Shown: piece by piece, positions 13,241 to 58,729 of the stretch | Position numbering within the stretch: position 1 is the first letter of the stretch | Layout: every line of letters starts with the position of its first letter | Assembly: GCF_947499295.1 (NCBI RefSeq) | Contig: NZ_CANMNP010000018.1 | Location: 62,001-126,000 of the forward strand | DNA: 64,000 nucleotides | Source: an uncultured Roseibium sp. | GTDB lineage: Bacteria > Pseudomonadota > Alphaproteobacteria > Rhizobiales > Stappiaceae | Direction of reading: 5' to 3' | Program-made: the position numbers and the translations under genes | The notes under the pieces: generated by a model | The model's input: only the letters and a program-made list of their open reading frames with translations | Told to the model about the DNA's origin: nothing | Database searches by the model: none

Positions 13241-13327
13241 GCCCAGGTGGCGGAACTGGTAGACGCGCTAGCTTCAGGTGCTAGTGCCCTAACGGGCGTG
13301 GAGGTTCGAGTCCTCTCCTGGGCACCA
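13241..13327 (+). tRNA. tRNA-Leu (anticodon CAG)
   Basis: An 87-nt type II tRNA. The acceptor stem GCCCAGG pairs with CCTGGGC, and the 3' CCA is encoded (13325-13327). The anticodon stem CTAGC (13268-13272)/GCTAG (13280-13284) closes a 7-nt loop with anticodon CAG at 13275-13277, reading CUG codons. The long variable arm (GCCC...GGGC) is the hallmark of leucine tRNA, and the T-arm GGTTCGAGTCC is present. A strong terminator follows 40 bp downstream. Confidence 0.97.
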
Positions 13328-45758: not shown

Positions 45759-47318
45759 ATGGCCATTTCAACAAAGCTGGAGATGCGACAAAGTCAGTCG
45801 CTGATCATGACGCCGCAACTGATGCAGGCGATCAAGCTTTTGCAGATGTCCAATCTCGATCTTGTTGCCTATGTCGAAGCTGAGCTGGAACGAAACCCGC
45901 TTCTGGAAAAAGGTGAAGGCGAGGCAGGCGAACAGGGAGCTTCCTCCGAGCCTGTCCTGGAAAACGCGCAGGACGCCAGCGCCAACGCTTCCGAGGGGTT
46001 TGACGGCGCAGGTGACGAGCCAAATAGTGGCGACTGGATGCAAAGCGACCTTGAAACGGGGTCGGAAGCGATCGCCTCTCGCATGGACACCGATCTCGGC
46101 AACGTTTTTCCAGATGAGCCCGGGGTTCCGGCCTCTCCGGATCCGGCCCTTCTCAAGACTGGCGACAGTTACAAGAACGTCAGCAGCGGCGGTGCCTCGG
46201 AAGACTACAACCTGGAGGCATTCGTTGCCGATGAAGTGTCTCTCGGCACGACTCTCGAAGAGCAGATGAACCTTGCTCTTAGTGACGACGCGGACAAGTT
46301 GATTGCCGGACACCTGATCAATTCTCTGGATGAAAACGGTTATCTTTACATCGACCTTGGCGAAGCCGCGGAGCAACTCGGAGTTGATGTCGCCAGGATC
46401 GAGAGCGTGCTTGCGGTGCTCCAGACCTTTGAGCCGGCAGGCGTTTTTGCACGGGGTCTCGCCGAGTGCCTGAAACTGCAGTTGATCGACAAGAACAGGT
46501 TCGATCCAGCTATGGAAGCGCTCATTGAGAACATTGAACTGCTTGCCAAGCGGGACCTGCCGGGCCTGAAAAGAATCTGTGGTGTTGATGACGAGGATCT
46601 CGTCGAAATGATTGCCGAGATCCGTGCTCTGGATCCCAAGCCTGGCAGTGTATTTGGCTCTTCTTTGGTTCAACCGGTCGTGCCGGATGTCTTTGTCAAA
46701 AAGGCAAATGACGGGACCTGGACGGTGGAACTGAACTCCGACACCTTACCGAAGGTCCTCGTCAACCAGACCTACTACGCACGGATCGTAAAGACGGCTC
46801 GGGACGAGACGGAAAAGGAATACCTGACGGAATCGCTGCAGACCGCCAACTGGCTGGCCAAAAGCCTCGACCAGCGGGCCAAGACGATTTTGAAGGTATC
46901 GACGGAAATCGTGCGCCAGCAGGACGGATTTCTGACTTATGGCATTGAACATCTGCGTCCACTCAACCTGAAGACCATCGCTGAAGCAATCAGCATGCAT
47001 GAATCGACTGTCAGCCGGGTGACGTCCAACAAGTACATGGCGACATCGAGGGGCATTTTCGAGCTGAAGTATTTCTTCTCCTCTGCAATCTCCGCAACGG
47101 TTGGCGGTGATGCCCATTCCGCCGAATCTGTCCGTCACAGAATCAGGCAGATGATCGACGCGGAAGACCCGAAATCGATCCTTTCCGACGATACGATTGT
47201 CAAAATTCTGAAGGGTGATGGCGTCGACATTGCCCGCAGGACAGTGGCCAAGTATCGCGAGGCGATGAAAATCGGATCGTCGGTACAAAGGCGGCGTGAG
47301 AAAAATGTCCGTCTATGA
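45759..47318 (+). CDS. rpoN: RNA polymerase sigma-54 factor RpoN
   Basis: A 519-residue sigma-54. The N-terminal Gln-rich activator-interacting region is QSQSLIMTPQLMQAIKLLQM, followed by an acidic linker, core-binding domain and the C-terminal RpoN box ARRTVAKYREAMKIG that contacts the -24 element. It directs nitrogen, carbon-transport and motility-type genes with enhancer-binding activators. Located between lptB and hpf. Confidence 0.97.
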   Translation: MAISTKLEMRQSQSLIMTPQLMQAIKLLQMSNLDLVAYVEAELERNPLLEKGEGEAGEQGASSEPVLENAQDASANASEGFDGAGDEPNSGDWMQSDLETGSEAIASRMDTDLGNVFPDEPGVPASPDPALLKTGDSYKNVSSGGASEDYNLEAFVADEVSLGTTLEEQMNLALSDDADKLIAGHLINSLDENGYLYIDLGEAAEQLGVDVARIESVLAVLQTFEPAGVFARGLAECLKLQLIDKNRFDPAMEALIENIELLAKRDLPGLKRICGVDDEDLVEMIAEIRALDPKPGSVFGSSLVQPVVPDVFVKKANDGTWTVELNSDTLPKVLVNQTYYARIVKTARDETEKEYLTESLQTANWLAKSLDQRAKTILKVSTEIVRQQDGFLTYGIEHLRPLNLKTIAEAISMHESTVSRVTSNKYMATSRGIFELKYFFSSAISATVGGDAHSAESVRHRIRQMIDAEDPKSILSDDTIVKILKGDGVDIARRTVAKYREAMKIGSSVQRRREKNVRL

Positions 47319-47445
47319 TGCTGGTGACGATATGTTGAAGCCTTCGATTGTTGCAATTTTCAAAATGAACCTGACGGTTTCACTGAAACAATACACTGAT
47401 TACACACAGTAGTTCGGCAATGATTGCTGGCCGTATTGTTATTAA

Positions 47446-47474
47446 TTGACTCTTTGAGCTGCCGCAATTATAGG
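47446..47474 (+). promoter_or_regulatory. Probable sigma-70 promoter of hpf
   Basis: TTGACT (47446-47451), 17-bp spacer, TATAGG (47469-47474), about 130 bp ahead of the hpf start. Good spacing and near-consensus boxes in an otherwise gene-free 286-bp gap. Confidence 0.55.
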
Positions 47475-47604
47475 ACCGCCCTCATGAGTTAAACAGGGGA
47501 TGGCGCTTCGGCACTGACTGGTCCATTCTGTACGCTTGAAACGTTACGCGTTTCAGCATCGGCAGAGGGCCGGTGTATCAGACAATACAAAAGAAGAGGT
47601 CCCC

Positions 47605-48192
47605 ATGGCTTTGCGGATTTCGGGTAAGAATGTTGATGTGGGCGATGCACTGCGCGAGCACATCACTGACCGAATAGAGGACGCCTTATCAAAGTATTTC
47701 ACAGGCGGCTTCACAGGCCACGTCACACTCAGCAGGGAAGGTAACGGCTTCAAGTCAGAATGCAGCCTGCATCTGGACACCGGCATTGTGCTTCAGGTGT
47801 CCGCACAGGATCAGGATCCGCGAAACAGTTTTGACGCTGCTGCTGACAAGATTGAAAAACGTTTGCGGCGCTACAAGCGCAAACTGAAGGACCATCACGG
47901 CCACACTGGCAATGGCCGGGAAGCTTTTGAGGCGGCATCCTACGTTCTGGCGTCCCCGGACGAGGACGAGGAAGTGCCGGTAGACTTCAATCCACTTGTG
48001 ATTGCAGAAACCTCGGCAAAGGTGAAGACAATGACTGTCGGAATGGCGGTCATGGAGCTTGATTTGACCGAAGCACCGGTTGTCCTGTTCAAAAATGCGG
48101 CAAATGGCGGTGTCAATGTTGTTTATCGCCGGTCCGATGGCAATATTGGGTGGATAGACCCGGCACTGGTGGCCAATGAGGCTGCCGAATAA
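47605..48192 (+). CDS. hpf: Long-form ribosome hibernation promoting factor
   Basis: A 195-residue long HPF. The N-terminal S30AE domain (MALRISGKNVDVGDALREHI) binds the 30S A and P sites; after a linker, the C-terminal domain (PVVLFKNAANGGVNVVYRRS) mediates 100S ribosome dimers. The ATG at 47605 is preceded by AAGAAGAGG. Its place between rpoN and ptsN matches the nitrogen-related phosphotransfer block. Confidence 0.95.
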   Translation: MALRISGKNVDVGDALREHITDRIEDALSKYFTGGFTGHVTLSREGNGFKSECSLHLDTGIVLQVSAQDQDPRNSFDAAADKIEKRLRRYKRKLKDHHGHTGNGREAFEAASYVLASPDEDEEVPVDFNPLVIAETSAKVKTMTVGMAVMELDLTEAPVVLFKNAANGGVNVVYRRSDGNIGWIDPALVANEAAE

Positions 48193-48205
48193 AGATGCGG
48201 ACGGG

Positions 48206-48229
48206 ACCGGCTTCCAGCTGGGAGCCGGT
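48206..48229 (+). terminator. Hairpin between hpf and ptsN
   Basis: ACCGGCT (48206-48212) pairs with AGCCGGT (48223-48229), and inner TCC/GGG pairing around an AGCT loop extends the stem to about 10 bp. Only three T residues follow, so it may reduce rather than stop read-through into ptsN, 23 bp on. Confidence 0.45.
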
Positions 48230-48252
48230 TTCCGAAAACTGTAGGCGATAGT

Positions 48253-48720
48253 ATGGATCTTAGTGATCTTCTGGGTAAAGACGCAGTCATTGCCGGACTG
48301 AAAGCGAAGAGCAAGAAACAGGCAATTCAAGAGTTGTCCGCAAAGGCAGCGGCACTGACTGGTCTTTCCGAACGTGAGATTTTCGATACGCTGCTTCAAC
48401 GCGAGCGTTTGGGCTCGACAGGTGTTGGTCACGGCATCGCGATCCCGCACGGCAAGCTGACGCGTCTCGACCGACTGGTTGGCCTGTTCGCCAAACTGAC
48501 GAAACCGGTCGATTTTGATTCCTTGGATGACCAACCTGTCGATCTTGTTTTTTTGCTGCTCGCGCCAGAGAGCGCCGGTGCTGACCATCTAAAGGCACTG
48601 GCACGCATAGCGCGCCAGCTTCGGGATGTTGACGTCACCCAAGGCCTGCGCGCATCCGGTGATGCGGAAGAGATTTACGGACTGCTGACCCAGACGATCG
48701 CTTCGTCCAACGCGGCTTGA
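48253..48720 (+). CDS. ptsN: PTS nitrogen-regulatory protein EIIA-Ntr (PtsN)
   Basis: A 155-residue EIIA-fructose/Ntr domain. The phosphorylated His66 is in GHGIAIPHGKLTRL. It receives phosphate from NPr and regulates potassium transport, carbon and nitrogen balance, rather than sugar uptake. Standard order after rpoN and hpf; ends at a strong terminator. Confidence 0.96.
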   Translation: MDLSDLLGKDAVIAGLKAKSKKQAIQELSAKAAALTGLSEREIFDTLLQRERLGSTGVGHGIAIPHGKLTRLDRLVGLFAKLTKPVDFDSLDDQPVDLVFLLLAPESAGADHLKALARIARQLRDVDVTQGLRASGDAEEIYGLLTQTIASSNAA

Positions 48721-48801: not shown

Positions 48802-50610
48802 TCAAGCTTCTGCTGGTTTGGCGTCTGCCTGGACAAGTCCCTGCTGCTGGTCACCAGGAGGGACCTGGCCTTTGGTGAGTGCCGGCAGATGCAGGTCGGC
48901 GAGTTCCGGTGGCGGAGAGGTTTCCTCGGGAATGCGCCACAAGGTGGACTGAATTGCAAGCTTGCCCAATGTCCGGGTTGAAGTGCCAACCGCAATGACT
49001 GATGCCAGCAATGGACCGACGGCGACCGGAATCACCGGCCAGACGAGCCCGATCGGTTGACCGGTCAGCCAGAGAAGTCCAGCACTACCGAAAACCGTTT
49101 GCGGCCAGAGTTTCTGAAGTGCGAGGGCAACCGGCAACCGGCGGACACCGCGGGCCTGGGCACCCCATCCGATGGTTTTTCCGAACAGCAGGCCACCCAT
49201 GAAGAGCGTATGGGCAACGGCCATCACCGGAGCGATCATCGCCGAATAGAGGATTTCGGCTCCAACGCTGAGCAGCACACGCACGGGGCCGCCAAAGGCC
49301 TTGCGCAGGTCTGCACGGGCAAGCACATCGGCAACCGTTGCAAGCTTGGGTGCAAAGACCATGGTCAGCACCGAGAAGAAGAGCAGTGCACCTGTATCCG
49401 GGCGATAGGGCATATAGTCAGTGACTATGCCAAGGACCGCCGCCGCCGTCATGAAGCCGATCCAGGCCGGAGACCCAAGGAACATCAATATGGCGAGAGC
49501 CAATTGCGCGCGGCTGACAGGCTTGAGATCCGGCATGCTCAAAAGCCTGCGATATTGCAGGTTGCCCTGACACCAGCGCAGATCCCGGCGGATGAACTCC
49601 AGAAGATGAGGCGGATTGACCTCATAGCTGCCGGTTTCGAGCGGCAGCACCCGGACTTCGTAGCCAGCACGCCGCATCAGGACAGCTTCCACCTGGTCAT
49701 GCGACAGGATAGCTCCGGAAAGAGGACCGTTGCCGGGCAGTTCGGGCAACCGGCAGTGTTCCTTGAACGGCTTCAGGCGCAATACCGCGTTGTGACCCCA
49801 GTACGGTCCGCAATCGCCTTGCCACCAGGCGCTTCCAATTGTGTAGGAGCGCATACCGAGCCGCATGCCGAACTGGAAAATGCGTGCAAATGCGCTGTCG
49901 GTCGGCAGGCCGACCACGAGACTTTGCAGGATGCCTACATTCGGGTTGGCTTCCATGCGTCTGACAAGTCCGGTTATAGCTTCAACGGACATGAAGCTAT
50001 CGGCATCCAGCACCAGCGCGAAATCATGCTGGTCGCCCCAGCGATCACAGAAGTCTTCGATGTTGCCTGCCTTGAAGCCCTTGTTGTCGGTGCGACGCCG
50101 GTAAACAACCTCCATCTGGCCTTCAAAACGTTCGGACAGGCGGGCCGTCAATTGCTGCTCCTGCAGCGCGATGTCGTCCATCGAGGTGTCGCTGAGAACG
50201 TAAAGCGTGAAGTTCTCGGCCTGACCCGCGCGGATCAACTGGGAGACCATGGCACTCAAATTGACTTCAAGGCTTTCCGCGTCTTCATCACGCACACAGG
50301 ACAGCAGTGCGGTGGAGCTTTTCAGGCGTGCGCTCGGGTCACCGTGATCGATCGGACAGACGGCCTCAACTGGGTTTTTCGAAAGCCGCATGATCGAAAG
50401 GCCGATAACTGCATTCCAGAAACCGATGATCGTCCAGGGAAGCGTGATCATGAAACAGGCGAGAATGAACAGATCAAGCGCCGAATAACCGCCAGGTGAC
50501 AGGGTCACTGTCATAAGCGCCGCGAGGCCCACAAAGCTCACGAGAAGAAGGAAAGAGAACACAATCCGTCGCGTTGTCATATTCGCGGCTGTTTTTTCGG
50601 AAATAGACAT
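48802..50610 (-). CDS. mdoH: Osmoregulated periplasmic glucan glucosyltransferase MdoH/OpgH
   Basis: About 602 residues. An inner-membrane processive GT2 enzyme that makes and exports beta-glucan backbones. Membrane helices flank the cytoplasmic catalytic domain, which shows VLDADSFMS (DxD), DQVEAVLMRRAGYEVR with the catalytic Asp, and RRDLRWCQGN in the Q/RxxRW position. The ATG at 50610 follows AGG; a GTG at 50628 would add six residues. No opgG is adjacent. It ends at the shared terminator with ptsN. Confidence 0.92.
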   Translation of the reverse strand: MSISEKTAANMTTRRIVFSFLLLVSFVGLAALMTVTLSPGGYSALDLFILACFMITLPWTIIGFWNAVIGLSIMRLSKNPVEAVCPIDHGDPSARLKSSTALLSCVRDEDAESLEVNLSAMVSQLIRAGQAENFTLYVLSDTSMDDIALQEQQLTARLSERFEGQMEVVYRRRTDNKGFKAGNIEDFCDRWGDQHDFALVLDADSFMSVEAITGLVRRMEANPNVGILQSLVVGLPTDSAFARIFQFGMRLGMRSYTIGSAWWQGDCGPYWGHNAVLRLKPFKEHCRLPELPGNGPLSGAILSHDQVEAVLMRRAGYEVRVLPLETGSYEVNPPHLLEFIRRDLRWCQGNLQYRRLLSMPDLKPVSRAQLALAILMFLGSPAWIGFMTAAAVLGIVTDYMPYRPDTGALLFFSVLTMVFAPKLATVADVLARADLRKAFGGPVRVLLSVGAEILYSAMIAPVMAVAHTLFMGGLLFGKTIGWGAQARGVRRLPVALALQKLWPQTVFGSAGLLWLTGQPIGLVWPVIPVAVGPLLASVIAVGTSTRTLGKLAIQSTLWRIPEETSPPPELADLHLPALTKGQVPPGDQQQGLVQADAKPAEA

Positions 50611-50726
50611 GTCAGAGACCTGAAACACTTATTTGAATTCCATTCACGGCAATCATCGCAATAGTGCGCATGTCAAAATGTCCTAATGTTGACAGAAGCA
50701 TGGCGAATGAGAGAGGACTTTATTTC

Positions 50727-51740
50727 ATGAAGGGCGATCCGCTGGTGACCGCGGTCACACGTACGCCAAGAGCGCTTTGGTATGCTGGTCGGGAGCGGTG
50801 TACGCTCGAAGGTGTGACGATTGAGGCGTTGCGATCGGACGACGTGCGTATTCAAACTCTCTTTAGCAGTGTGAGCCGCGGCACAGAAGGACTGGTCTTC
50901 CGAGGCGAGGTTCCCGAAAGTGAATGGCAGCGCATGCGCGCGCCTTTCCAGGAAGGGGATTTTTCTTTCCCCGTCAAATACGGATATGCCAATGTCGGCA
51001 AGGTTCTGGAAGGCGATCCCGCGCTTGAGGGGCGTATCGTTTTTTCGCTCTTTCCACATCAAAGCGATTTCACTCTTCCATCCGGTTACTGTGCTCCCAT
51101 TCCTGACGCTGTTAGCGCGGAGCGGGCGGTTCTCGCCGCCAATATGGAAACGGCACTTAACGCTATATGGGACGGAAAACCATCACCTGGGGATCACATC
51201 TGCGTGGTCGGCGCGGGAGTTGTCGGGCTTTTGACTGCATACGTTGCGTCTCGTCTGCCCGGATCAGTGGTGACGGTTATTGACACCAACGGCGAGCGGG
51301 CTGCCATTGCGGAAGTCCTTGGATTTGGGTTTGCTTTGCCGGACGACGCACCAGCCAACCAGGATCTTGTATTCCACACAAGTGCGTCTTCTGCAGGCCT
51401 TGAAACGGCCTTGAAGGTCTGTGGCGATGGTGCCTCCGTAGTCGAGATGAGCTGGTATGGAACCAAGGGCGTTCAGGCACCATTGGGCGCCGATTTTCAT
51501 TGTCGCCGGTTGAAACTCATCTCAAGCCAGGTCGGAACCATTCCAGTCGACCGGCAAGCGCGCTGGTCTTATCGCCGCCGCCTGGAGACGGCGCTCAACT
51601 TGCTTCAAGATCCAGTGCTGGACGTGCTGATAAGCCATCGTATAAGGTTCGATGACTTGCCTGAACAGCTTCCCGATTTGTTGAACAAAGCGTCAGATGT
51701 GCTGGCCGCGCTCGTCGTTTATGACGGTGCGACCGGCTAA
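50727..51740 (+). CDS. MDR-superfamily oxidoreductase lacking the catalytic zinc site
   Basis: About 337 residues of the medium-chain dehydrogenase fold. The N-terminal GroES-like domain has SVSRGTEGLVFRGEVP where zinc alcohol dehydrogenases have a Cys-Gly-Thr site, so no catalytic zinc Cys is present. The Rossmann domain starts with ICVVGAGVVGLLTAYVASRL. The start ATG 50727 has AGAGGA 9 bp upstream; ATG 50700 is an alternative. First gene of the compact MDR-PTPS-GT4-methyltransferase operon. It would reduce or oxidise a pathway intermediate. Confidence 0.85.
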   Translation: MKGDPLVTAVTRTPRALWYAGRERCTLEGVTIEALRSDDVRIQTLFSSVSRGTEGLVFRGEVPESEWQRMRAPFQEGDFSFPVKYGYANVGKVLEGDPALEGRIVFSLFPHQSDFTLPSGYCAPIPDAVSAERAVLAANMETALNAIWDGKPSPGDHICVVGAGVVGLLTAYVASRLPGSVVTVIDTNGERAAIAEVLGFGFALPDDAPANQDLVFHTSASSAGLETALKVCGDGASVVEMSWYGTKGVQAPLGADFHCRRLKLISSQVGTIPVDRQARWSYRRRLETALNLLQDPVLDVLISHRIRFDDLPEQLPDLLNKASDVLAALVVYDGATG

Positions 51741-51784
51741 ATTCCTTTCGTCTCACTTACCTCCACAATTTCAGGACTATCGAA

Positions 51785-52183
51785 ATGTTTGCAGTTGAAG
51801 TTCGCGACCATGTGATGATCGCCCATTCGTTCAAGGGAGAGCTGTTCGGCCCGGCTCAGGCGTTGCATGGCGCAACATTCGTTATCGATGCGGCGTTTCT
51901 GGCCGACAGTCTCGATGAAAACGGTGTGGTCATCGATATTGGCCGTGCGCACGAAGCCTTGAAGGAAGTGCTGGAACCTTTGAACTACAAGAACCTCGAC
52001 GAAGTTCCAGAGTTTGAAGGCATCAACACAACGACAGAGTTTTTGACAAAGCACATTCACGATCACCTTGCCAAAGCAGCACGCAACGACAGACTTGGCC
52101 GACCAGGTGCTGAACTTGGTGCGATCCGTGTAACCATTTCAGAATCGCACGTGGCACGTGCCTGGTACGAAGCCAAGATCTGA
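51785..52183 (+). CDS. PTPS/QueD-like pterin protein with altered active site
   Basis: A 132-residue single-domain protein with the T-fold of 6-pyruvoyl/6-carboxytetrahydropterin synthases. His14 and His28 match two of the three zinc ligands, but the usual HGH is HGA (Ala30) and the Cys four residues before is Ala24. The conserved NTTTEFL and ESHVARAWYE (with the pterin-binding Glu) are retained. It therefore probably binds a pterin-like substrate but with altered or different chemistry. It lies 6 bp ahead of a GT4 gene. Confidence 0.85.
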   Translation: MFAVEVRDHVMIAHSFKGELFGPAQALHGATFVIDAAFLADSLDENGVVIDIGRAHEALKEVLEPLNYKNLDEVPEFEGINTTTEFLTKHIHDHLAKAARNDRLGRPGAELGAIRVTISESHVARAWYEAKI

Positions 52184-52189
52184 GTACCG

Positions 52190-53242
52190 ATGAAAAGTCT
52201 ATGTTTCGCCTATCCGGGTGATCTGGAAACACCAACCGGTGGTTACGGTTACGACCGGCAAATCATCGCAGGTCTGAAGCGTGACGGTTGGGATGTTGAT
52301 CTTGTGCCGCTTGGAGACGGCTTTCCGTTTCCCGACAATCAGACATTGGCGACTGCCAAGAAGCGCTTGAATACGCTTCCTGACGGTTGTTTGGTGGTCG
52401 TTGACGGCTTGGCCTTTGGTGCTATGCCCAATGCCGCCAAGGAGCTGAAGAACCATTTGGAGCTGGTGGCACTTGTTCATCATCCCCTTTGCCGTGAAAA
52501 CGGTTTAAGCAATTCTGAGGCGCAAGCGCTGGAAAGCAGCGAGCGGGAGGCGCTATCCAACGCACACCATGTGATTGTCACCAGTCCGGCCACCGGCGAT
52601 CAGGTATCCGATCTCTTCGACATTGAGAAGAAGAACATCAGCATCGTTTTGCCTGGTACGGAGTTGCCCGAACTGCGACAGAAAAATGCGCAGACACCAG
52701 TCCGCTTGCTCGCGGTTGGTACACTGGTCTACCGCAAGGGGTATGATCTGTTGCTGAAGGCGCTGTCCGACCTGAAGCAATTTGACTGGCAGTTGGATAT
52801 TGTCGGTGGCCTCACGGCGGATCCTGCCTGCGTGGATGACATTCAACGTCTCGCGCGGGACTTGGATCTCGACGAACGGCTGGTTTTTCACGGTGCCTTA
52901 CCTTCCGAACGGCTGAAGGAATTCTACCAGTCTGCTGAAGTCTTTGTTCTTGCCAGCCGCTATGAGGGGTATGGGATGGCCTATACCGAGGCGATGGCAC
53001 ACGGACTTGCTGTCATTGGAAGTGGCGGTGGTGCCGTTCGGGACACGCTGCCACAAGGTGCTGCACTCTATTGCCCTCCGGAAGATGTTGCGTCCTTGCA
53101 ATCGGCCTTGGAAAGCCTGATCACCGATCGGGATCTGCGCCAAGCGCTATCCATTGGAGCGCGACAAGCTGCAGAAAAGCTCCCGAGTTGGCGCGATGCG
53201 TCTGAAAGGTTCTCGCAGATACTTCAAAGGATTTCAAAATGA
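52190..53242 (+). CDS. GT4-family glycosyltransferase
   Basis: A 350-residue retaining GT-B glycosyltransferase. N-terminal acceptor half begins AYPGDLETPTGGYGYDRQII; the donor half contains LLAVGTLVYRKGYDLLLKAL and the E-x7-E motif SRYEGYGMAYTEAMAHGLAV. No membrane helices. Between a PTPS-like gene and a methyltransferase (ATGA overlap), suggesting glycosylation of a small molecule rather than a polymer. Confidence 0.9.
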   Translation: MKSLCFAYPGDLETPTGGYGYDRQIIAGLKRDGWDVDLVPLGDGFPFPDNQTLATAKKRLNTLPDGCLVVVDGLAFGAMPNAAKELKNHLELVALVHHPLCRENGLSNSEAQALESSEREALSNAHHVIVTSPATGDQVSDLFDIEKKNISIVLPGTELPELRQKNAQTPVRLLAVGTLVYRKGYDLLLKALSDLKQFDWQLDIVGGLTADPACVDDIQRLARDLDLDERLVFHGALPSERLKEFYQSAEVFVLASRYEGYGMAYTEAMAHGLAVIGSGGGAVRDTLPQGAALYCPPEDVASLQSALESLITDRDLRQALSIGARQAAEKLPSWRDASERFSQILQRISK

Positions 53243-54021
53243 GTGGATTTTCATCGCATTGGCTGGCGTTGCGGGAGCCGCTCGATTTGGCCGCCAGAAA
53301 CACCGTTGTGGAGCAGGCCTTTTTTGCCGCTCTGCCCACTTCTCAAGTTCATGTTCTCGACCTTGCCAGTGGAGCAGGTTCAACCGTTGCCGCTTTGAAC
53401 GACAAGTTTTCAGCGCCTGTTTGCTGGAAGCTGACCGATTTTGATGAGGCGTTGCTGGACGTGGCATCGAGCCGATTTCAGGGCGAACTCAATGTGCAGC
53501 AGATCGATTTGCAAGCCGATCTGGAGAAGTTGCCTTTTGATCAATTCGACGCAATCACCACCTCGGCGTTTCTGGATTTGACCTCCAAAGCGTTCCTGGA
53601 ACGCCTGGTTGATAAGGTTGTCGAGGCCAGGAAGCCGTTTCTGGCAAGCCTGACTTATGACGGTCGGACTGAATTCTCTCCCGGCCATGGCTTGGACGAG
53701 GATCTTCGTCAGGCGCTCAACCGGCATCAGCAAACCGACAAGGGGTTTGGTCCTGCGCTTGGACCGGAGGCTGCCAAGGTGGCGATCGAGTTGTTCAAGG
53801 CACGTGATTGCCGTGTCGTACAAGGCACCTCAGACTGGCTGACAGGAGCTGATTCAGAAGACTTTCTGCTCGAATTCCTGAGCGGATGGCGGCGGGTTGG
53901 CCTCCAGGTTGGACTTGACGCTGAGCGCTTGGAAAGCTGGTGGCAGGACAGGCAGCGCAGGATTGGCGAGGCTCAGCTGCGCGTCATGGTGGGGCATTTG
54001 GATTTTGTGGTTCTGCCTTAA
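53239..54021 (+). CDS. Class I SAM-dependent methyltransferase
   Basis: A 260-residue methyltransferase. Motif I is VLDLASGAGSTVAALN near residue 36, followed by the acidic DFDEALLD loop and a motif-IV-like stretch at FDAITTSAFLDLTS. It is coupled to the upstream GT4 gene by ATGA overlap and closes the operon. It likely methylates the pterin or glycoside product; the position is unknown. Confidence 0.87.
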   Translation: MSGFSSHWLALREPLDLAARNTVVEQAFFAALPTSQVHVLDLASGAGSTVAALNDKFSAPVCWKLTDFDEALLDVASSRFQGELNVQQIDLQADLEKLPFDQFDAITTSAFLDLTSKAFLERLVDKVVEARKPFLASLTYDGRTEFSPGHGLDEDLRQALNRHQQTDKGFGPALGPEAAKVAIELFKARDCRVVQGTSDWLTGADSEDFLLEFLSGWRRVGLQVGLDAERLESWWQDRQRRIGEAQLRVMVGHLDFVVLP

Positions 54022-54353
54022 AACCACCATTCCCAGATTGCCTTTCAGCGTATGACCCTCGTGAGGCGGCAGTTGGTGAATGCCATCGTGAAGTGAGGCC
54101 GGTTCAGTTAATCTGCCGGTAAGTATAAAACCAACGAATTCGCAGATATGCGTGTTTTTCGCCGCTTTTGGGCGGACTTTGCGCCGTCAGCGCTTCCCGT
54201 ATAAATGGCATGATAAGGAATTTGCGTTAGCCAGAACTGTAATACAGGAAGCGTTTGCACTATTCTTGAATTACATTTGGTTCGCAGAAATCTTCGTCTA
54301 ACAGAAGAGTGCCAGATGTTTGGGGTAGTGCTCAAACTGAAGGTTCCCGCGTG
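54022..54353. other. Intergenic region upstream of the HAD-UbiA gene
   Basis: 332 bp. No convincing gene on either strand. A weak CCGC/GGCGG hairpin lies near 54161-54176 and might end the four-gene operon. The rest should hold the promoter of the following glycan locus; I see no consensus boxes that stand out. Confidence 0.5.
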
Positions 54354-55790
54354 ATGGATCAGCGCTGTGAAACGACAAACCGGGCTATTTACGTAGACTT
54401 GGATGGCACGCTCATTGGGGGTGATCTGCTTTGGGAAAGCCTGTTTCAGGCGCTTCGCAGAAAACCGTTCGTTGTTTTCCTGATTTTTGGTTGGTTGCGG
54501 CACGGCATTGCCTTCACCAAGGCAAGGCTTGCCGAGGCTGCAGAAATCGATGTTAAAACACTGCCTTATAGAACTGGTGTCGTTGAACGCCTGAAGGCGG
54601 AAAAAGCGGCGGGCCGGCGGCTCGTGCTGGCGACTGGATCGAATGAAGCTCTTGCTCAAGCGGTAGCCGAGCATCTGGGGATCTTCGATGACGTGCTTGC
54701 GTCCGATGAAAAAACCAACCTGACAGCGCATCGTAAGCTTGACCGGATAAGGGACCGGGTCGGCGAGGAAGGCTTTGACTACTACGGCAACTCTCATCAC
54801 GACGTCTGTCTGTTTGAAGAGGCGGCCGAAGCGACGGTCGTCGCTCCGGACAGGGCTGCACACAACTGGCAACGCCAGACAGGCGCTGAACGGATTGACG
54901 CGACTGAGAGCGAGATCAAAGCTGCAATACAGGCCATGCGCCCGCATCAATGGCTCAAAAACGCACTGATTTTCGTACCCGCAGTCCTGGCGCACGAGAT
55001 TTTTGTCGCATCCGTTTTTGTCAGTAGTTTGTTGGCATTCGTAGCATTTTCACTCACGGCTTCGGCCATCTATGTGGTTAATGACCTTTTGGACCTTGAG
55101 GCGGATCGCCGTCACCGCACGAAGTGCAATCGCCCGTTTGCAAGCGGCCGGTTGAGTGTGCCAAACGGCTTACTTCTGGCAGCTGGCTCGATTGTGGTTG
55201 CTTTCGTTATCTCCGCATTCCTGCCCTTGGCCTTCACTGGGATACTGGTGCTTTATCTGTTTATTACAACCGCATATTCGGTCGCGATAAAGCGGATGCT
55301 CTTGCTCGATGTTTTCGTCCTGGCCGGTCTCTACACTGTGCGTGTCCTTGCCGGGGGGGCTGCCGCTGATATCGAGTATTCGTTCTGGCTGCTCGCGTTC
55401 TCGGTCTTCTTCTTCCTGTCGCTTGCTTTGGTGAAACGCTTTACCGAGTTGCAGCAAGTTGGCGAAGTAGCCTCGCGTGAAGTCACTGGCCGCGGCTATC
55501 GGCATGTTGACCTGGAACCTATCTCGCAGGCAGGCATGACATCCGGTTTCGCGGCTGTATTGGTTCTCGCGCTCTATATTCAAAGTCCGGTAATCGAGGA
55601 AGCTTATGCAATTCCGCAACTTATCTGGCTTTTGTGCCCGCTGGTTCTCTACATCATCATGCGTATCTGGATCCTCGCGCGCAGAGGCGAGATGCATGAA
55701 GACCCGATTGTTTTCATCCTGAAGGACTGGCGCAGCCAATTTATGATCGGTTGCGGTGCCGTCCTTTTCCTGATTGCTGCTGCCTGGTAA
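54354..55790 (+). CDS. HAD phosphatase-UbiA prenyltransferase fusion (DPPR synthase-like)
   Basis: About 478 residues. The N-terminal HAD phosphatase shows YVDLDGTLIGG (Asp15, Asp17) and GNSHHDVCLF. From about residue 190 a UbiA-type membrane prenyltransferase follows with MRPHQWLKNALIF and the catalytic NDLLDLEADRRHRTKCNRPF. The second domain resembles decaprenyl-phosphate phosphoribosyltransferase (Rv3806c type); the HAD could remove the 5' phosphate, like the separate mycobacterial phosphatase. ATG 54354 is used; GTG 54309 is possible. Followed 6 bp on by the DprE1-like gene. Confidence 0.87.
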   Translation: MDQRCETTNRAIYVDLDGTLIGGDLLWESLFQALRRKPFVVFLIFGWLRHGIAFTKARLAEAAEIDVKTLPYRTGVVERLKAEKAAGRRLVLATGSNEALAQAVAEHLGIFDDVLASDEKTNLTAHRKLDRIRDRVGEEGFDYYGNSHHDVCLFEEAAEATVVAPDRAAHNWQRQTGAERIDATESEIKAAIQAMRPHQWLKNALIFVPAVLAHEIFVASVFVSSLLAFVAFSLTASAIYVVNDLLDLEADRRHRTKCNRPFASGRLSVPNGLLLAAGSIVVAFVISAFLPLAFTGILVLYLFITTAYSVAIKRMLLLDVFVLAGLYTVRVLAGGAAADIEYSFWLLAFSVFFFLSLALVKRFTELQQVGEVASREVTGRGYRHVDLEPISQAGMTSGFAAVLVLALYIQSPVIEEAYAIPQLIWLLCPLVLYIIMRIWILARRGEMHEDPIVFILKDWRSQFMIGCGAVLFLIAAAW

Positions 55791-55796
55791 GCCGAC

Positions 55797-57113
55797 ATGG
55801 TCAAGGAAATGCGGCAGATTGCCAGCTGGGGTGGATTGTCGGTCAAAAACCCGCGTCTTCTCGCGCCTGACCGGTATCTGACCAGCGAGATCAGATCGGA
55901 AGGTGCGTTGCCTTTTGGCAATGGCAGAAGTTATGGCGACAGTTGCTTGAATGCAGCCGGGAGCGCGATTACGTCACAATCCGCAAATCGCATTCTGTCT
56001 TTCGACAAGTCTTCCGGTCTTCTGGAAGCGGAAGCAGGCATCCTCTTAAGCGACATCATCGCAGCTGTGGCGCCGCATGGTTGGTTTCCTGTGGTGGTTC
56101 CCGGCACTCAGTTTGTGACGCTTGGCGGTGCCATTGCCAATGACATTCACGGAAAAAACCACCACAGGCGGGGGACATTCGGCTGTCACGTGGTGGACCT
56201 GCTGCTCGAGAGATCGGACCAGGGTCCTGTCCTTTTGAACCCAACTGAGGAGAGTGGCCTTTTCGATGCAACGATTGGGGGCATGGGCCTGACCGGTCTG
56301 ATCCGCAAGGCGACCATTCAGCTGATGAAAGTCGGTTCCTCTTCGATCAACCAGGTGACGACACGCTTTGAAAGTCTGGAAGCGTATTTCGAGTTGGTTG
56401 ATGATGCAGATGCGCAGCATGAATATGCGGTCGCCTGGATCGACTCTCTGGTCAAGGGGCGGCATTTCGGGCGGGGGCACCTGATTGCCGGCGACCATGC
56501 TGCTGAAGGTGAGCATCCGCAACGCAAACCGGTGCCACGTTTGAGCATCCCGCTCACGCCGCCGATCTCACCCCTTCAAGGGCCCTTCCTGAAGCTCTTC
56601 AACGAAAGCTACTTCAGAAGCGCGCCTGTGGGCAGATCCGAGCAGTTGGTTGCCTTTGACAAATTCTTCTTTCCGCTGGACCGCGTTGGGCGATGGAACC
56701 GTCTCTATGGGCCAAGGGGCCTCCATCAGCACCAGAGCGCTATCCCGCCGGACAATGCGTTTGAGGTCATTAAGTCTCTGCTGGAATGCACCCAAAGAAA
56801 TCATCATGGGTCCTTTCTGACCGTCTTGAAACGCTTTGGGTCACTGCCAAGCCCTGGGATCTTGAGCTTTCCGCGTCCAGGCTTCACGTTGACGCTTGAT
56901 TTCCCGGACAAAGGCAGTGTGACCCACAGGTTGCTTGAGCAACTCGACGCCATCACCATTCAGTCCGGGGGTGCGGTGAACCCTTACAAGGACCGGCGAA
57001 TGTCGAGTGTGACTTTCAGAGCCTCTTTTCCGAGCTGGCAAGAGATCGAGAAACTGCGGGATCCTGCACTTATGTCTGACTTTTGGCGCAGGACTGTCTT
57101 GGACGGCAGCTGA
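55797..57113 (+). CDS. DprE1-like FAD-dependent oxidase
   Basis: A 438-residue VAO-type flavoprotein. FAD-binding half: LPFGNGRSYGDSCLNAAG and GGAIANDIHGKNHHRRGTFG, the segment strongly conserved in decaprenylphosphoryl-beta-D-ribose 2'-oxidase DprE1. It would oxidise a polyprenyl-phosphoryl ribose at C2. The immediately preceding HAD-UbiA fusion fits that pathway. A DprE2-like reductase is not adjacent unless the 57716 epimerase fills the role. Confidence 0.87.
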   Translation: MVKEMRQIASWGGLSVKNPRLLAPDRYLTSEIRSEGALPFGNGRSYGDSCLNAAGSAITSQSANRILSFDKSSGLLEAEAGILLSDIIAAVAPHGWFPVVVPGTQFVTLGGAIANDIHGKNHHRRGTFGCHVVDLLLERSDQGPVLLNPTEESGLFDATIGGMGLTGLIRKATIQLMKVGSSSINQVTTRFESLEAYFELVDDADAQHEYAVAWIDSLVKGRHFGRGHLIAGDHAAEGEHPQRKPVPRLSIPLTPPISPLQGPFLKLFNESYFRSAPVGRSEQLVAFDKFFFPLDRVGRWNRLYGPRGLHQHQSAIPPDNAFEVIKSLLECTQRNHHGSFLTVLKRFGSLPSPGILSFPRPGFTLTLDFPDKGSVTHRLLEQLDAITIQSGGAVNPYKDRRMSSVTFRASFPSWQEIEKLRDPALMSDFWRRTVLDGS

Positions 57114-57119
57114 CATGGT

Positions 57120-57250
57120 GAATCAAATAATAATAACATGAAGAAAATTTAAGTAATAAAGTCACGTATTATTATTCATACAGTGATATCAAAGTTAAAT
57201 CGCGCCGGAATTAAGATAATTTAATCAAATTAGATCGATAGTTGCGTTGG
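57120..57250. other. AT-rich segment between the DprE1-like gene and the SMR gene
   Basis: About 130 bp dominated by A/T, including AATAATAATAAC, TATTATTATTC and AATTTAATCAAATTAG, in otherwise GC-rich DNA. It probably holds the promoter for the downstream genes, and resembles H-NS/MucR-bound or horizontally acquired spacers. No gene. Confidence 0.6.
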
Positions 57251-57281
57251 TAAAATTTACAGTGAGTGGAGACGATGGGGT

Positions 57282-57719
57282 ATGGCTAAGTTCCTCCCTT
57301 TTATTTTATTTACCGTACTAACAAACGCAGCTGCACAAATAATGTTAAAGTACGGAATGACCAAGCTGGGTGATTTCAGCGGGTTGTCCAGCAATCTGGT
57401 CATCAAACTACTTCAGGTCGTGTTCTCGCCATTCGTGTTTTTGGGTCTTTGCACCTTTGTGATCTCAATGGCGTCGCATCTTTATGTCTTGTCGAAAGTA
57501 GAGCTGTCATACGCCTATCCGTTTTTGTCACTTGCCTATGTGGTTGTGGCTGTCTACGCCTATTTCATTTTTCAGGAAGACTTGAACGCGATGCGTGTCA
57601 TCGGGATCGCCTTCATCTGCGTCGGCACGATCTTCATCGCGCAAGGCGGATCCAACCCTGATCAGAACCACGCAAAATCCCCGGTTGAAACTGCGGCTCT
57701 GAAGGAGACCTCCAAGTGA
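57282..57719 (+). CDS. Small EamA/SMR-type membrane transporter
   Basis: A 145-residue protein with four helices; NAAAQIMLKYGMTKLGDFSG, YVLSKVELSYAYPFLSLAYV and MRVIGIAFICVGTIFIAQGG match ArnE/ArnF-like half-transporters, some of which flip lipid-linked sugars. It sits between a polyprenyl-sugar pathway and a sugar-nucleotide gene, so a flippase role is attractive but inferred. The last codons overlap the next gene start (GTGA). Confidence 0.82.
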   Translation: MAKFLPFILFTVLTNAAAQIMLKYGMTKLGDFSGLSSNLVIKLLQVVFSPFVFLGLCTFVISMASHLYVLSKVELSYAYPFLSLAYVVVAVYAYFIFQEDLNAMRVIGIAFICVGTIFIAQGGSNPDQNHAKSPVETAALKETSK

Positions 57720-58729
57720 AACACATTCTTTTCGGTGGAGACGGTTTCGTCGGTCGCCAACTTGCCAAAAAGCTCCTGGAAGACGGTGAAGAGGTCATTG
57801 TTGCCGATATCGTCAATGACAATCAGTCAGTATATCCGAAGGCAACTTTTCTTACCTGCGATGTGACCGATCCGGCCTCTATCGCCGCCGTTTCGATAGC
57901 TGCGGAAGACATGGTTTACAATCTGTCGGCCAAGATGCTGTCACCGATCCAGGTGCGCGCAAAACGTCACGACTTTTTCTATCCGGTCAACTACGACGGG
58001 ACCAAGAACATCATCGAAGCGATGGACCGTGCGGGCGCCAAGAAACTGGTGCACTATACCACCGACATGGTCTATGGCCACACCGTTACCTACCCGATGA
58101 CCGAAGATCATCCTGTCGCGCCACTCGGCGAATATGGTCAATCCAAGCTGGACACGGAGTTCCTGGCAGGCGACTGGCGTGAGCGCGGAATGGACATCAC
58201 CCTGTTTCGGCCACGGTTGATTATCGGTCCGGGCCGTCTTGGCATCCTGACCAAGCTCTTCAAACTTATCGATATGAACCTTCCGGTCCCCATGATCGGG
58301 TCTGGTAAGAACCCTTACCAGTTCATTTCGGTGTTCGATTGTGCCGATGCCGCCTATCGCGCCTGGAAAGCGGGTGTTCCGAATGAAGCTTATAATCTGG
58401 GCTCCATCAATCCTCCTCCAGTCAAGAAGCTGCTTGGCGATCTTGTGAAGCACGCAGGATCCAAGTCGTTGCTGCTGCCAACCTGGGGATTTGCGGTCAA
58501 GCGCACCCTTGATTTCCTCGACGCCATCAACATGCCGCTGATGGATCCGGAACAGTATCTGATTGCTGACGAGATGTGCGTTCTCGATGTCTCAAAGGGC
58601 GAGCGTGACCTTGGCTGGGTGCCGGCCTACCGCGACGAAGATATGCTGATCGCCGCATATGACGAATACCGATCACAGAAAACGGCCGGGAACGGTGCCA
58701 ATCACGGCAGCGTTCAGCCTGCAGAATAG
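57716..58729 (+). CDS. NAD-dependent epimerase/dehydratase (extended SDR)
   Basis: A 337-residue sugar-nucleotide-type SDR starting at GTG 57716. GGDGFVGRQLAKKLLEDGEE is the cofactor motif, YTTDMVYG gives the TDxxYG active-site region, and YGQSK carries the YxxxK pair. Late segment FKLIDMNLPVPMIGSGKNPY is typical of the family. It could epimerise a nucleotide sugar or act in the polyprenyl-pentose pathway; substrate unknown. Confidence 0.9.
   Translation: MKHILFGGDGFVGRQLAKKLLEDGEEVIVADIVNDNQSVYPKATFLTCDVTDPASIAAVSIAAEDMVYNLSAKMLSPIQVRAKRHDFFYPVNYDGTKNIIEAMDRAGAKKLVHYTTDMVYGHTVTYPMTEDHPVAPLGEYGQSKLDTEFLAGDWRERGMDITLFRPRLIIGPGRLGILTKLFKLIDMNLPVPMIGSGKNPYQFISVFDCADAAYRAWKAGVPNEAYNLGSINPPPVKKLLGDLVKHAGSKSLLLPTWGFAVKRTLDFLDAINMPLMDPEQYLIADEMCVLDVSKGERDLGWVPAYRDEDMLIAAYDEYRSQKTAGNGANHGSVQPAE

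Follow-up and report, generated by a model that had tools for sequence, protein, structure and literature searches.

The DNA analysed here, a 64,000-nucleotide (nt) stretch of the genome of an uncultured Roseibium sp. (the window; contig NZ_CANMNP010000018.1, positions 62,001 to 126,000), carries a compact four-gene operon that encodes a medium-chain dehydrogenase/reductase (MDR), a protein of the 6-pyruvoyltetrahydropterin synthase (PTPS) type, a GT4 glycosyltransferase and a methyltransferase. A preliminary description of the window had proposed that these four genes may make a glycosylated pterin-like molecule. We found that the four genes are kept together and in the same order across Pseudomonadota, with a membrane enzyme as their usual divergent neighbor, and that the PTPS-like protein has lost the catalytic triad while keeping residues of the pterin pocket. 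The features are:

48802-50628, minus strand: MdoH-like membrane glycosyltransferase (GT2), the divergent partner (PF13632, NCBIfam MdoH models)
50727-51740, plus strand: MDR-family oxidoreductase with zinc ligands absent, BchC-like and with a polyol-dehydrogenase fold (open reading frame (ORF) list, homologue alignment, model)
51785-52183, plus strand: PTPS-IV (FGPAQ) T-fold protein with the catalytic triad lost (PF01242, 3D7J match, residue survey)
52190-53242, plus strand: GT4-family glycosyltransferase (PF00534 at 4e-31; in 85 of the 88 loci compared below)
53239-54021, plus strand: class I S-adenosylmethionine-dependent methyltransferase (PF13649, Methyltransf_25, at 4e-8; class I folds)

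The ORF coordinates bear out the tight packing that had been claimed (a 6-bp gap followed by a 4-bp overlap): 44 nt separate the MDR and PTPS genes, 6 nt separate PTPS from GT4, and GT4 overlaps the methyltransferase gene by 4 nt. In-frame starts exist upstream of the MDR start, as far as a GTG at 50664, and the homologue alignments begin at about 50727. The MdoH-like gene lies 98 nt upstream of the MDR gene, in divergent orientation, and its product has 608 amino acids.

The PTPS-like protein matched PF01242 in Pfam at 1e-21 and gave a weak QueD-like match alone in PHROGs. Its closest solved structure was 3D7J (SCO6650 of Streptomyces coelicolor; E 1.4e-41), to which it is 54% identical over 130 aligned residues and with which it shares the FGPAQ and HGA motifs, although SCO6650 comes from another phylum and carries the PDB name "uncharacterized protein". 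SCO6650 reportedly lacks zinc, the triad and PTPS activity, and retains a pterin-type pocket. We surveyed residues in 178 PTPS sequences, namely the window's own and 177 from fetched loci (at least 100 bits; 175 of the 177 distinct, some named and unnamed loci such as L049 and L143 representing the same strain), setting positions against the QueD of the host genome; the survey covers this close family, with remote proteins such as that of Natronorubrum outside it. The catalytic Cys was replaced by Ala24, and the second His of HGH, a zinc ligand, by Ala30, in all 178 sequences, the triad Asp was Asn67 in 137/177 and the triad His was Tyr68 in 161/177. His14 and His28 were retained in 178/178 and Glu120 in 177/177. 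None of the 178 sequences thus held the residue set of PTPS and QueD enzymes (catalytic Cys, Asp and His with three zinc His, in a CxxxHGH or CxxxxxHGH motif). Within the FGPAQ signature, F21, G22, A24 and Q25 were invariant and P23 occurred in 177 of 178; a lone Streptomyces copy of PTPS-IV (L114) reads FGSAQ. Glu120 corresponds to the conserved ring-binding Glu of T-fold pterin-binding proteins, which reads the 2-amino-4-oxo ring. With the triad Cys and one zinc His gone and the Asp and His mostly gone, the protein is not an ordinary PTPS, and its sequence predicts a pterin-pocket T-fold protein of the PTPS-IV family. FGPAQ is the published signature of this subfamily of COG0720 (PMC5445326).

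The same residues bear on the simplest reading of the gene, an ordinary queD with incidental neighbors, which is how most of the plasmid records described below label it (6-carboxytetrahydropterin synthase). The host genome, however, holds a separate QueD with the CxxxHGH motif beside ORFs reading as QueE and QueC, the Cys site is Ala throughout the family, and the linkage described next is not incidental; we rejected this reading as scarcely credible.

A scan of genome contigs yielded at least 561 confirmed relatives, and the 80 with the best scores formed a named set; the closest of these to the window were loci of Roseibium, at no more than 94% PTPS identity. Since the best 80 lean toward close relatives, even samples were drawn as well: 249 Hyphomicrobiales genomes, 68 of them with a true PTPS-IV (ten more gave weak matches, which were not counted), and 398 genomes from the phylum, 27 of them with a strong PTPS-IV (matches below 55 bits were not counted). 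Together these gave 88 loci. The order sample contributed 69, among them the window itself and a second copy from genome G167, and the phylum sample added 19 not already present; three fetched weak-match loci (L221-L223) were kept out. Loci were typed with hidden Markov models trained on the named loci plus a handful of genes from plasmids, at score thresholds that we set ourselves.

An MDR gene was present in 87 of the 88 loci, GT4 in 85 and a separate methyltransferase in 74. All four core genes occurred in 73 loci, every time in the order MDR, PTPS, GT4, methyltransferase, and the core set and order were kept in 79/88 once six loci in which GT4 and the methyltransferase form a single reading frame (L211, L213, L215, L216, L218 and L220) were added. 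Because the order is kept so widely, the association is not a matter of chance, and the conserved linkage on which the preliminary description had staked its proposal was found. At the same thresholds, 68 of the named 80 held the four core genes. The 14 missing methyltransferases comprise the six fusions, four contig ends and four further loci (L180, L183, L187 and L189), and contig ends account for four of the nine loci that were not complete (L161, L173, L194 and L199). GT4 lies upstream of the MDR gene in L183 and L189. In 14 of the named loci, which come almost entirely from betaproteobacteria, the gene that best matches the window methyltransferase is on the minus strand some 5-5.7 kb upstream, beside a ChvA-like exporter. 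Pfam recognized both domains in the L211 and L216 fusions, with the methyltransferase domain scoring close to its cut-off; a further fusion was seen in L083, with its methyltransferase domain under the Pfam cut-off.

The MDR protein scored under the Pfam cut-offs, and its best NCBIfam model, BchC (2e-13), was also well under its own. In an alignment of 30 MDRs, the positions that we take to be the known zinc-ligand sites were replaced (SxISRGTE, and GY for GHE), and the ligands of zinc-dependent alcohol dehydrogenases (Cys, GHE) were absent from the MDR. Its model (pLDDT 92.2) found butanediol, xylitol, idonate and galactitol-phosphate dehydrogenases among the closest solved folds. The window protein thus shares its best family model with BchC and its fold neighborhood with polyol dehydrogenases, but differs from these in its missing zinc ligands and in a score far under the BchC cut-off. 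The methyltransferase model (pLDDT 96.1) was closest to 3mgg and to phosphoethanolamine methyltransferases, all class I folds, a match between predicted and solved folds that leaves the substrate unfixed.

Around the core, the 88 loci held genes for an MdoH-like protein (62 loci), RibD (47), FkbM (35), cytochrome b561 (32), RibA (30) and a family that we call c10 (22), and more rarely a CDP-alcohol phosphatidyltransferase (17), a flippase-like protein (14), a creatininase (8), a sulfatase (6), YfhO (4) and an ABC exporter (3). Members of c10 (for example L095:6056-7084, minus strand) are about 340 amino acids long and lie on the strand of the MdoH-like gene; the one member scanned had no Pfam or NCBIfam match, and the N-terminus resembles a signal peptide by eye.

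Domain scans covered one RibA and one RibD from named loci. The RibA is a GTP cyclohydrolase II (GCHII; PF00925, with NF006456 above its cut-off), and the RibD had PF01872 (the RibD_C reductase) alone above cut-off, without a deaminase domain, its sub-cut-off matches being TIGR00227 (general RibD C-terminal; 4e-35) and an archaeal diaminopyrimidine-reductase model (7.5e-28). Across 72 RibA ORFs, the catalytic-Tyr site read Tyr in 61 and Met in 2 and was unreadable by pattern in 9, and the GCHII zinc pattern matched 51 and missed 21. Both Met variants come from Streptomyces, each accompanied by a creatininase. SCO6655, presumably a near neighbor of SCO6650, is reported to be a Met enzyme whose reaction ends at the formylated (FAPy) intermediate. 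PMC2853524 lists a correlation of -0.61 between its expression and predicted riboflavin flux, and SCO2687 is listed there too (-0.52); the SCO6655 value fits a non-riboflavin role.

A neighborhood of PF00925 and PF01872 genes around PTPS-IV has already been published in PMC5445326, with PF00925 labeled FolE2; contrary to that label, the sequence evidence points to the PF00925 member near PTPS-IV being GCHII. The same neighborhood is present in many of our relatives and absent from the window. Counting copies as dedicated to the module at E <= 1e-50 for RibD and E <= 1e-60 for RibA, we found dedicated RibD in 51/249 Hyphomicrobiales genomes, of which 50 also carry PTPS-IV against 13.9 expected (the exception being a genome 56% complete), and dedicated RibA in 46/249, 38 of them with PTPS-IV against 12.6 expected, both expectations being uncorrected for shared ancestry. 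In several genomes the RibA-RibD pair is distant from PTPS-IV (4.4 Mb in G065), and the co-occurrence therefore exceeds local linkage. RibD or RibA accompanied PTPS-IV in 58 of the 68 genomes, and both did so in 30. The GTP cyclohydrolase that had been suggested as a companion of the operon is therefore linked to it in relatives, but it is of type II, paired with a RibD reductase, rather than FolE, and the window's genome has no dedicated copy.

RibA and RibD are riboflavin-type enzymes, and they suit an alternative in which a lumazine- or flavin-type compound with a 2,4-dioxo ring, drawn from riboflavin intermediates, is glycosylated and methylated to give the product; the window genus, having no dedicated copies, would need the housekeeping riboflavin branch. 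We consider this unlikely, as the scanned RibD is a reductase domain without the deaminase, the retained T-fold Glu is the one that reads the 2-amino-4-oxo ring, and no lumazine or riboflavin synthase was found among the nine neighbor families scanned with Pfam (other neighbor clusters were not scanned). RibA and RibD could likewise supply the precursor of coenzyme F420, and a role of PTPS-IV in F420 synthesis is stated, as unpublished, in PMC5041015. CofH (E <= 1e-40), however, was found in 25/249 genomes and in 6 of the 68 with PTPS-IV, where 6.8 would be expected; it is absent from the window genome, whose one CofD-family match sits, by eye, among unrelated genes. With CofH co-occurring at chance level, we rejected the F420 role as highly improbable.

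The divergent MdoH-like protein matched PF13632 at 3e-15 and NCBIfam MdoH models at best 1e-203, two of them above cut-off. The gene directly left of MDR was a divergent MdoH-like gene in 60 of the 88 loci and a divergent CDP-alcohol phosphatidyltransferase gene in 14; either one alone was present in 75 loci, both in 2 and neither in 11. A membrane enzyme of one or the other kind is thus part of the module, and the borders first drawn for the unit, which hold for the four genes, were too narrow in leaving out the MdoH-like gene at 48802-50628. Because the usual neighbor is a membrane enzyme, the final molecule may be attached to the membrane or exported; a lipid or polymer sugar, the product that the preliminary description had named as refuting its proposal, is neither demonstrated nor discounted. 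No second copy of the MdoH-like gene was found in the 6.4-Mb host genome, from which MdoG/OpgG (PF04349) is absent (an E. coli control was positive); ordinary OpgGH synthesis of periplasmic glucan is therefore unlikely, and we rejected that role.

These partners lend weight to a second alternative, in which the module makes a glycolipid or a glycan for export, PTPS-IV acts as a subunit that binds a ligand or has a structural role without catalysis, and the link to pteridines is indirect. MdoH-like proteins (62/88), CDP-alcohol phosphatidyltransferases (17/88), flippase-like proteins (14/88) and ChvA-like ABC exporters (18/80 named loci) would all agree with it, as would the missing PTPS triad. 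On the other hand, 50 of 51 genomes with the dedicated RibD also have PTPS-IV, which suggests a pyrimidine substrate, and the absence of MdoG tells against an ordinary glucan; on balance, a glycolipid or glycan seems to us improbable, if not remotely so.

PTPS matches were also found in 21 of 72,556 plasmid records, 14 of which were inspected; Actinomycetota were covered through their plasmids. The four-gene order recurred on plasmids of Streptomyces fungicidicus, S. globisporus, Microbacterium, Thiodictyon, Peteryoungia, Agrobacterium, Methylosinus and Neorhizobium. In the archaeon Natronorubrum the same order was found at low scores, with a PTPS that lacks FGPAQ and has an HSH motif.

We propose that the operon and its divergent MdoH-like gene form the late part of an uncharacterized dedicated pathway, in which a GCHII product is converted to a 2-amino pteridine (or a diaminopyrimidine) that is glycosylated, methylated and coupled to the membrane, a proposal that we hold tentatively, at a little short of an even chance. 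On the genes, linkage and residues described above, the module probably makes a pterin-like molecule that carries a sugar and a methyl group and is finally placed in the cell membrane or beyond it; we infer the reactions, the order of the steps and the product as follows. GTP would be opened by GCHII to 2,5-diamino-6-ribosylamino-pyrimidinone 5'-phosphate, or, on two Streptomyces plasmids, by a Met-variant GCHII together with a creatininase-family deformylase. Deformylation of the formylated intermediate to the same diaminopyrimidine by a creatininase-family enzyme has been described in PMC9478397, which also reports that one more distant homologue failed complementation, so that the creatininases of the module need not be deformylases. 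In having GCHII, sometimes with a creatininase-family protein, module loci resemble the GCHII step of riboflavin synthesis and this deformylation by BrbF/ArfB (PMC9478397), but they differ in that these genes adjoin PTPS-IV, GT4 and the methyltransferase. The stand-alone RibD-type reductase would then give the ribityl compound without deamination, and in the absence of a deaminase the 2-amino-4-oxo (pterin-like) ring pattern would be kept. The MDR may oxidize the polyol side chain, and the triad-less PTPS-IV may bind the ring and aid ring closure or a side-chain rearrangement to the pteridine. GT4 would add a sugar and the methyltransferase, coupled to GT4 and sometimes fused with it, would methylate the product, which the MdoH-like glycosyltransferase or the CDP-alcohol phosphatidyltransferase would place in or across the membrane, joined in some loci by the flippase-like protein or ABC exporter. 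In the window genus, which has no dedicated RibA or RibD, the precursor would come from the housekeeping pathway, the early steps presumably being carried out by riboflavin enzymes.

Several observations weigh against this proposal. The second copy in G167 (L180) is a PTPS-IV without any partner, no methyltransferase scored above threshold in L183, L187 or L189 (weak matches of 17.6 bits in L183 and 14.1 bits in L189), and GT4 is absent from L206 and L128. Among plasmids, two from Streptomyces (L114 and L127) carry PTPS-IV without partners, GT4 lies elsewhere in the locus in Palleronia and is missing in strain SC52, and the Arthrobacter stretch yielded MDR, PTPS and GT4 alone. The dedicated enzymes are not universal either: RibA and RibD are out of reach of 41/88 loci, and neither occurs in 10 of the 68 PTPS-IV genomes, including the window genome and a congener. 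Dedicated RibA and RibD are both absent from the window's genome, whose sole GCHII (39.7 bits) and best RibD (116.9 bits) score as housekeeping types. Conversely, 8 of the 46 RibA carriers have no PTPS-IV, five of them from one genus. The MdoH-like protein, the CDP-alcohol phosphatidyltransferase and the ChvA-like exporter also suit a glycolipid or glycan product, and with the PTPS triad and the MDR zinc ligands gone, the chemistry is not readable from known relatives. As a separate observation, the five carriers from one genus (G030, G073, G139, G190 and G212) may use RibA otherwise or have lost the module. The glycosylated-pterin interpretation of the preliminary description is partly supported: the linkage and the cyclohydrolase co-occurrence agree with it, but the PTPS has no triad and the cyclohydrolase is not of the FolE type.

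The proposed pathway can be taken one step further. Oxidation of the ribityl chain at C2' would, we infer, allow the 5-amino group to complete a dihydropterin ring, which is also where the FolE Amadori route leads. The module might then be a FolE-independent neopterin-type route, with opening by GCHII, C1' reduction by RibD, C2' oxidation by the MDR and closure of the 2'-keto group onto the 5-amino group on the PTPS-IV T-fold; the pterin, glycosylated, methylated, lipid-attached or exported and with cytochrome b561 as redox partner, would be a redox cofactor of a new kind in the membrane or periplasm, common among Alpha- and Betaproteobacteria and also found in Actinomycetota. We regard this fuller version as doubtful; if it is true, a reduction and an oxidation stand in for the Amadori step of FolE.

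The cyanobacterial pterin glucosyltransferase pathway, likened here by its components, also combines a PTPS-fold protein with a glycosyltransferase, and both would finish with a sugar-bearing pterin. That route starts with FolE and an active PTPS, whereas the module would start with GCHII and RibD and has a PTPS without the triad. The PTPS-IV family and its RibA/RibD neighborhood are already published (PMC5445326), and the window agrees with them in its FGPAQ motif and in the neighborhood found in many relatives, but its own genome has no dedicated PF00925 or PF01872 copies. Our searches of the open-access literature listed PTPS-IV in the enzyme sense in just PMC5041015 and PMC5445326. They turned up no account of the complete module or its product, nor of the four-gene core order, the GT4-methyltransferase fusions, the way in which MdoH-like and CDP-alcohol partners alternate or the co-occurrence with RibD.

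Beyond the operon, a Rfam scan of the window at the gathering threshold gave just a tRNA at 13241-13324 and no riboswitch. Upstream, 45759-48720 holds ORFs reading as RpoN, a hibernation factor and a PtsN-like protein, an ordinary group that occurs in the nine Roseibium loci as well. Downstream, 54309-58729 encodes a UbiA-type enzyme with a HAD domain, a DprE1-like oxidase, an EamA-like protein and an SDR, a set that resembles decaprenylphosphoryl-arabinose synthesis. Continuation of the operon into 54309-57113 was considered and rejected, UbiA and DprE1 being kept there in just 3 of 9 Roseibium loci (L037, L039 and L040).

The presence of this gene set from Alpha- and Betaproteobacteria to Streptomyces, and partly in a haloarchaeon, points to a widespread small molecule, made by genes whose current annotations are queuosine synthesis, alcohol dehydrogenase and glucan synthesis. 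The proposed pathway would give functions to the PTPS-IV family, to the solved but unexplained structure of SCO6650, to SCO6655, reportedly a FAPy-forming enzyme, and to second copies of RibA and RibD that are easily ascribed to riboflavin synthesis. The genus of the window would represent its smallest version, four genes and MdoH.

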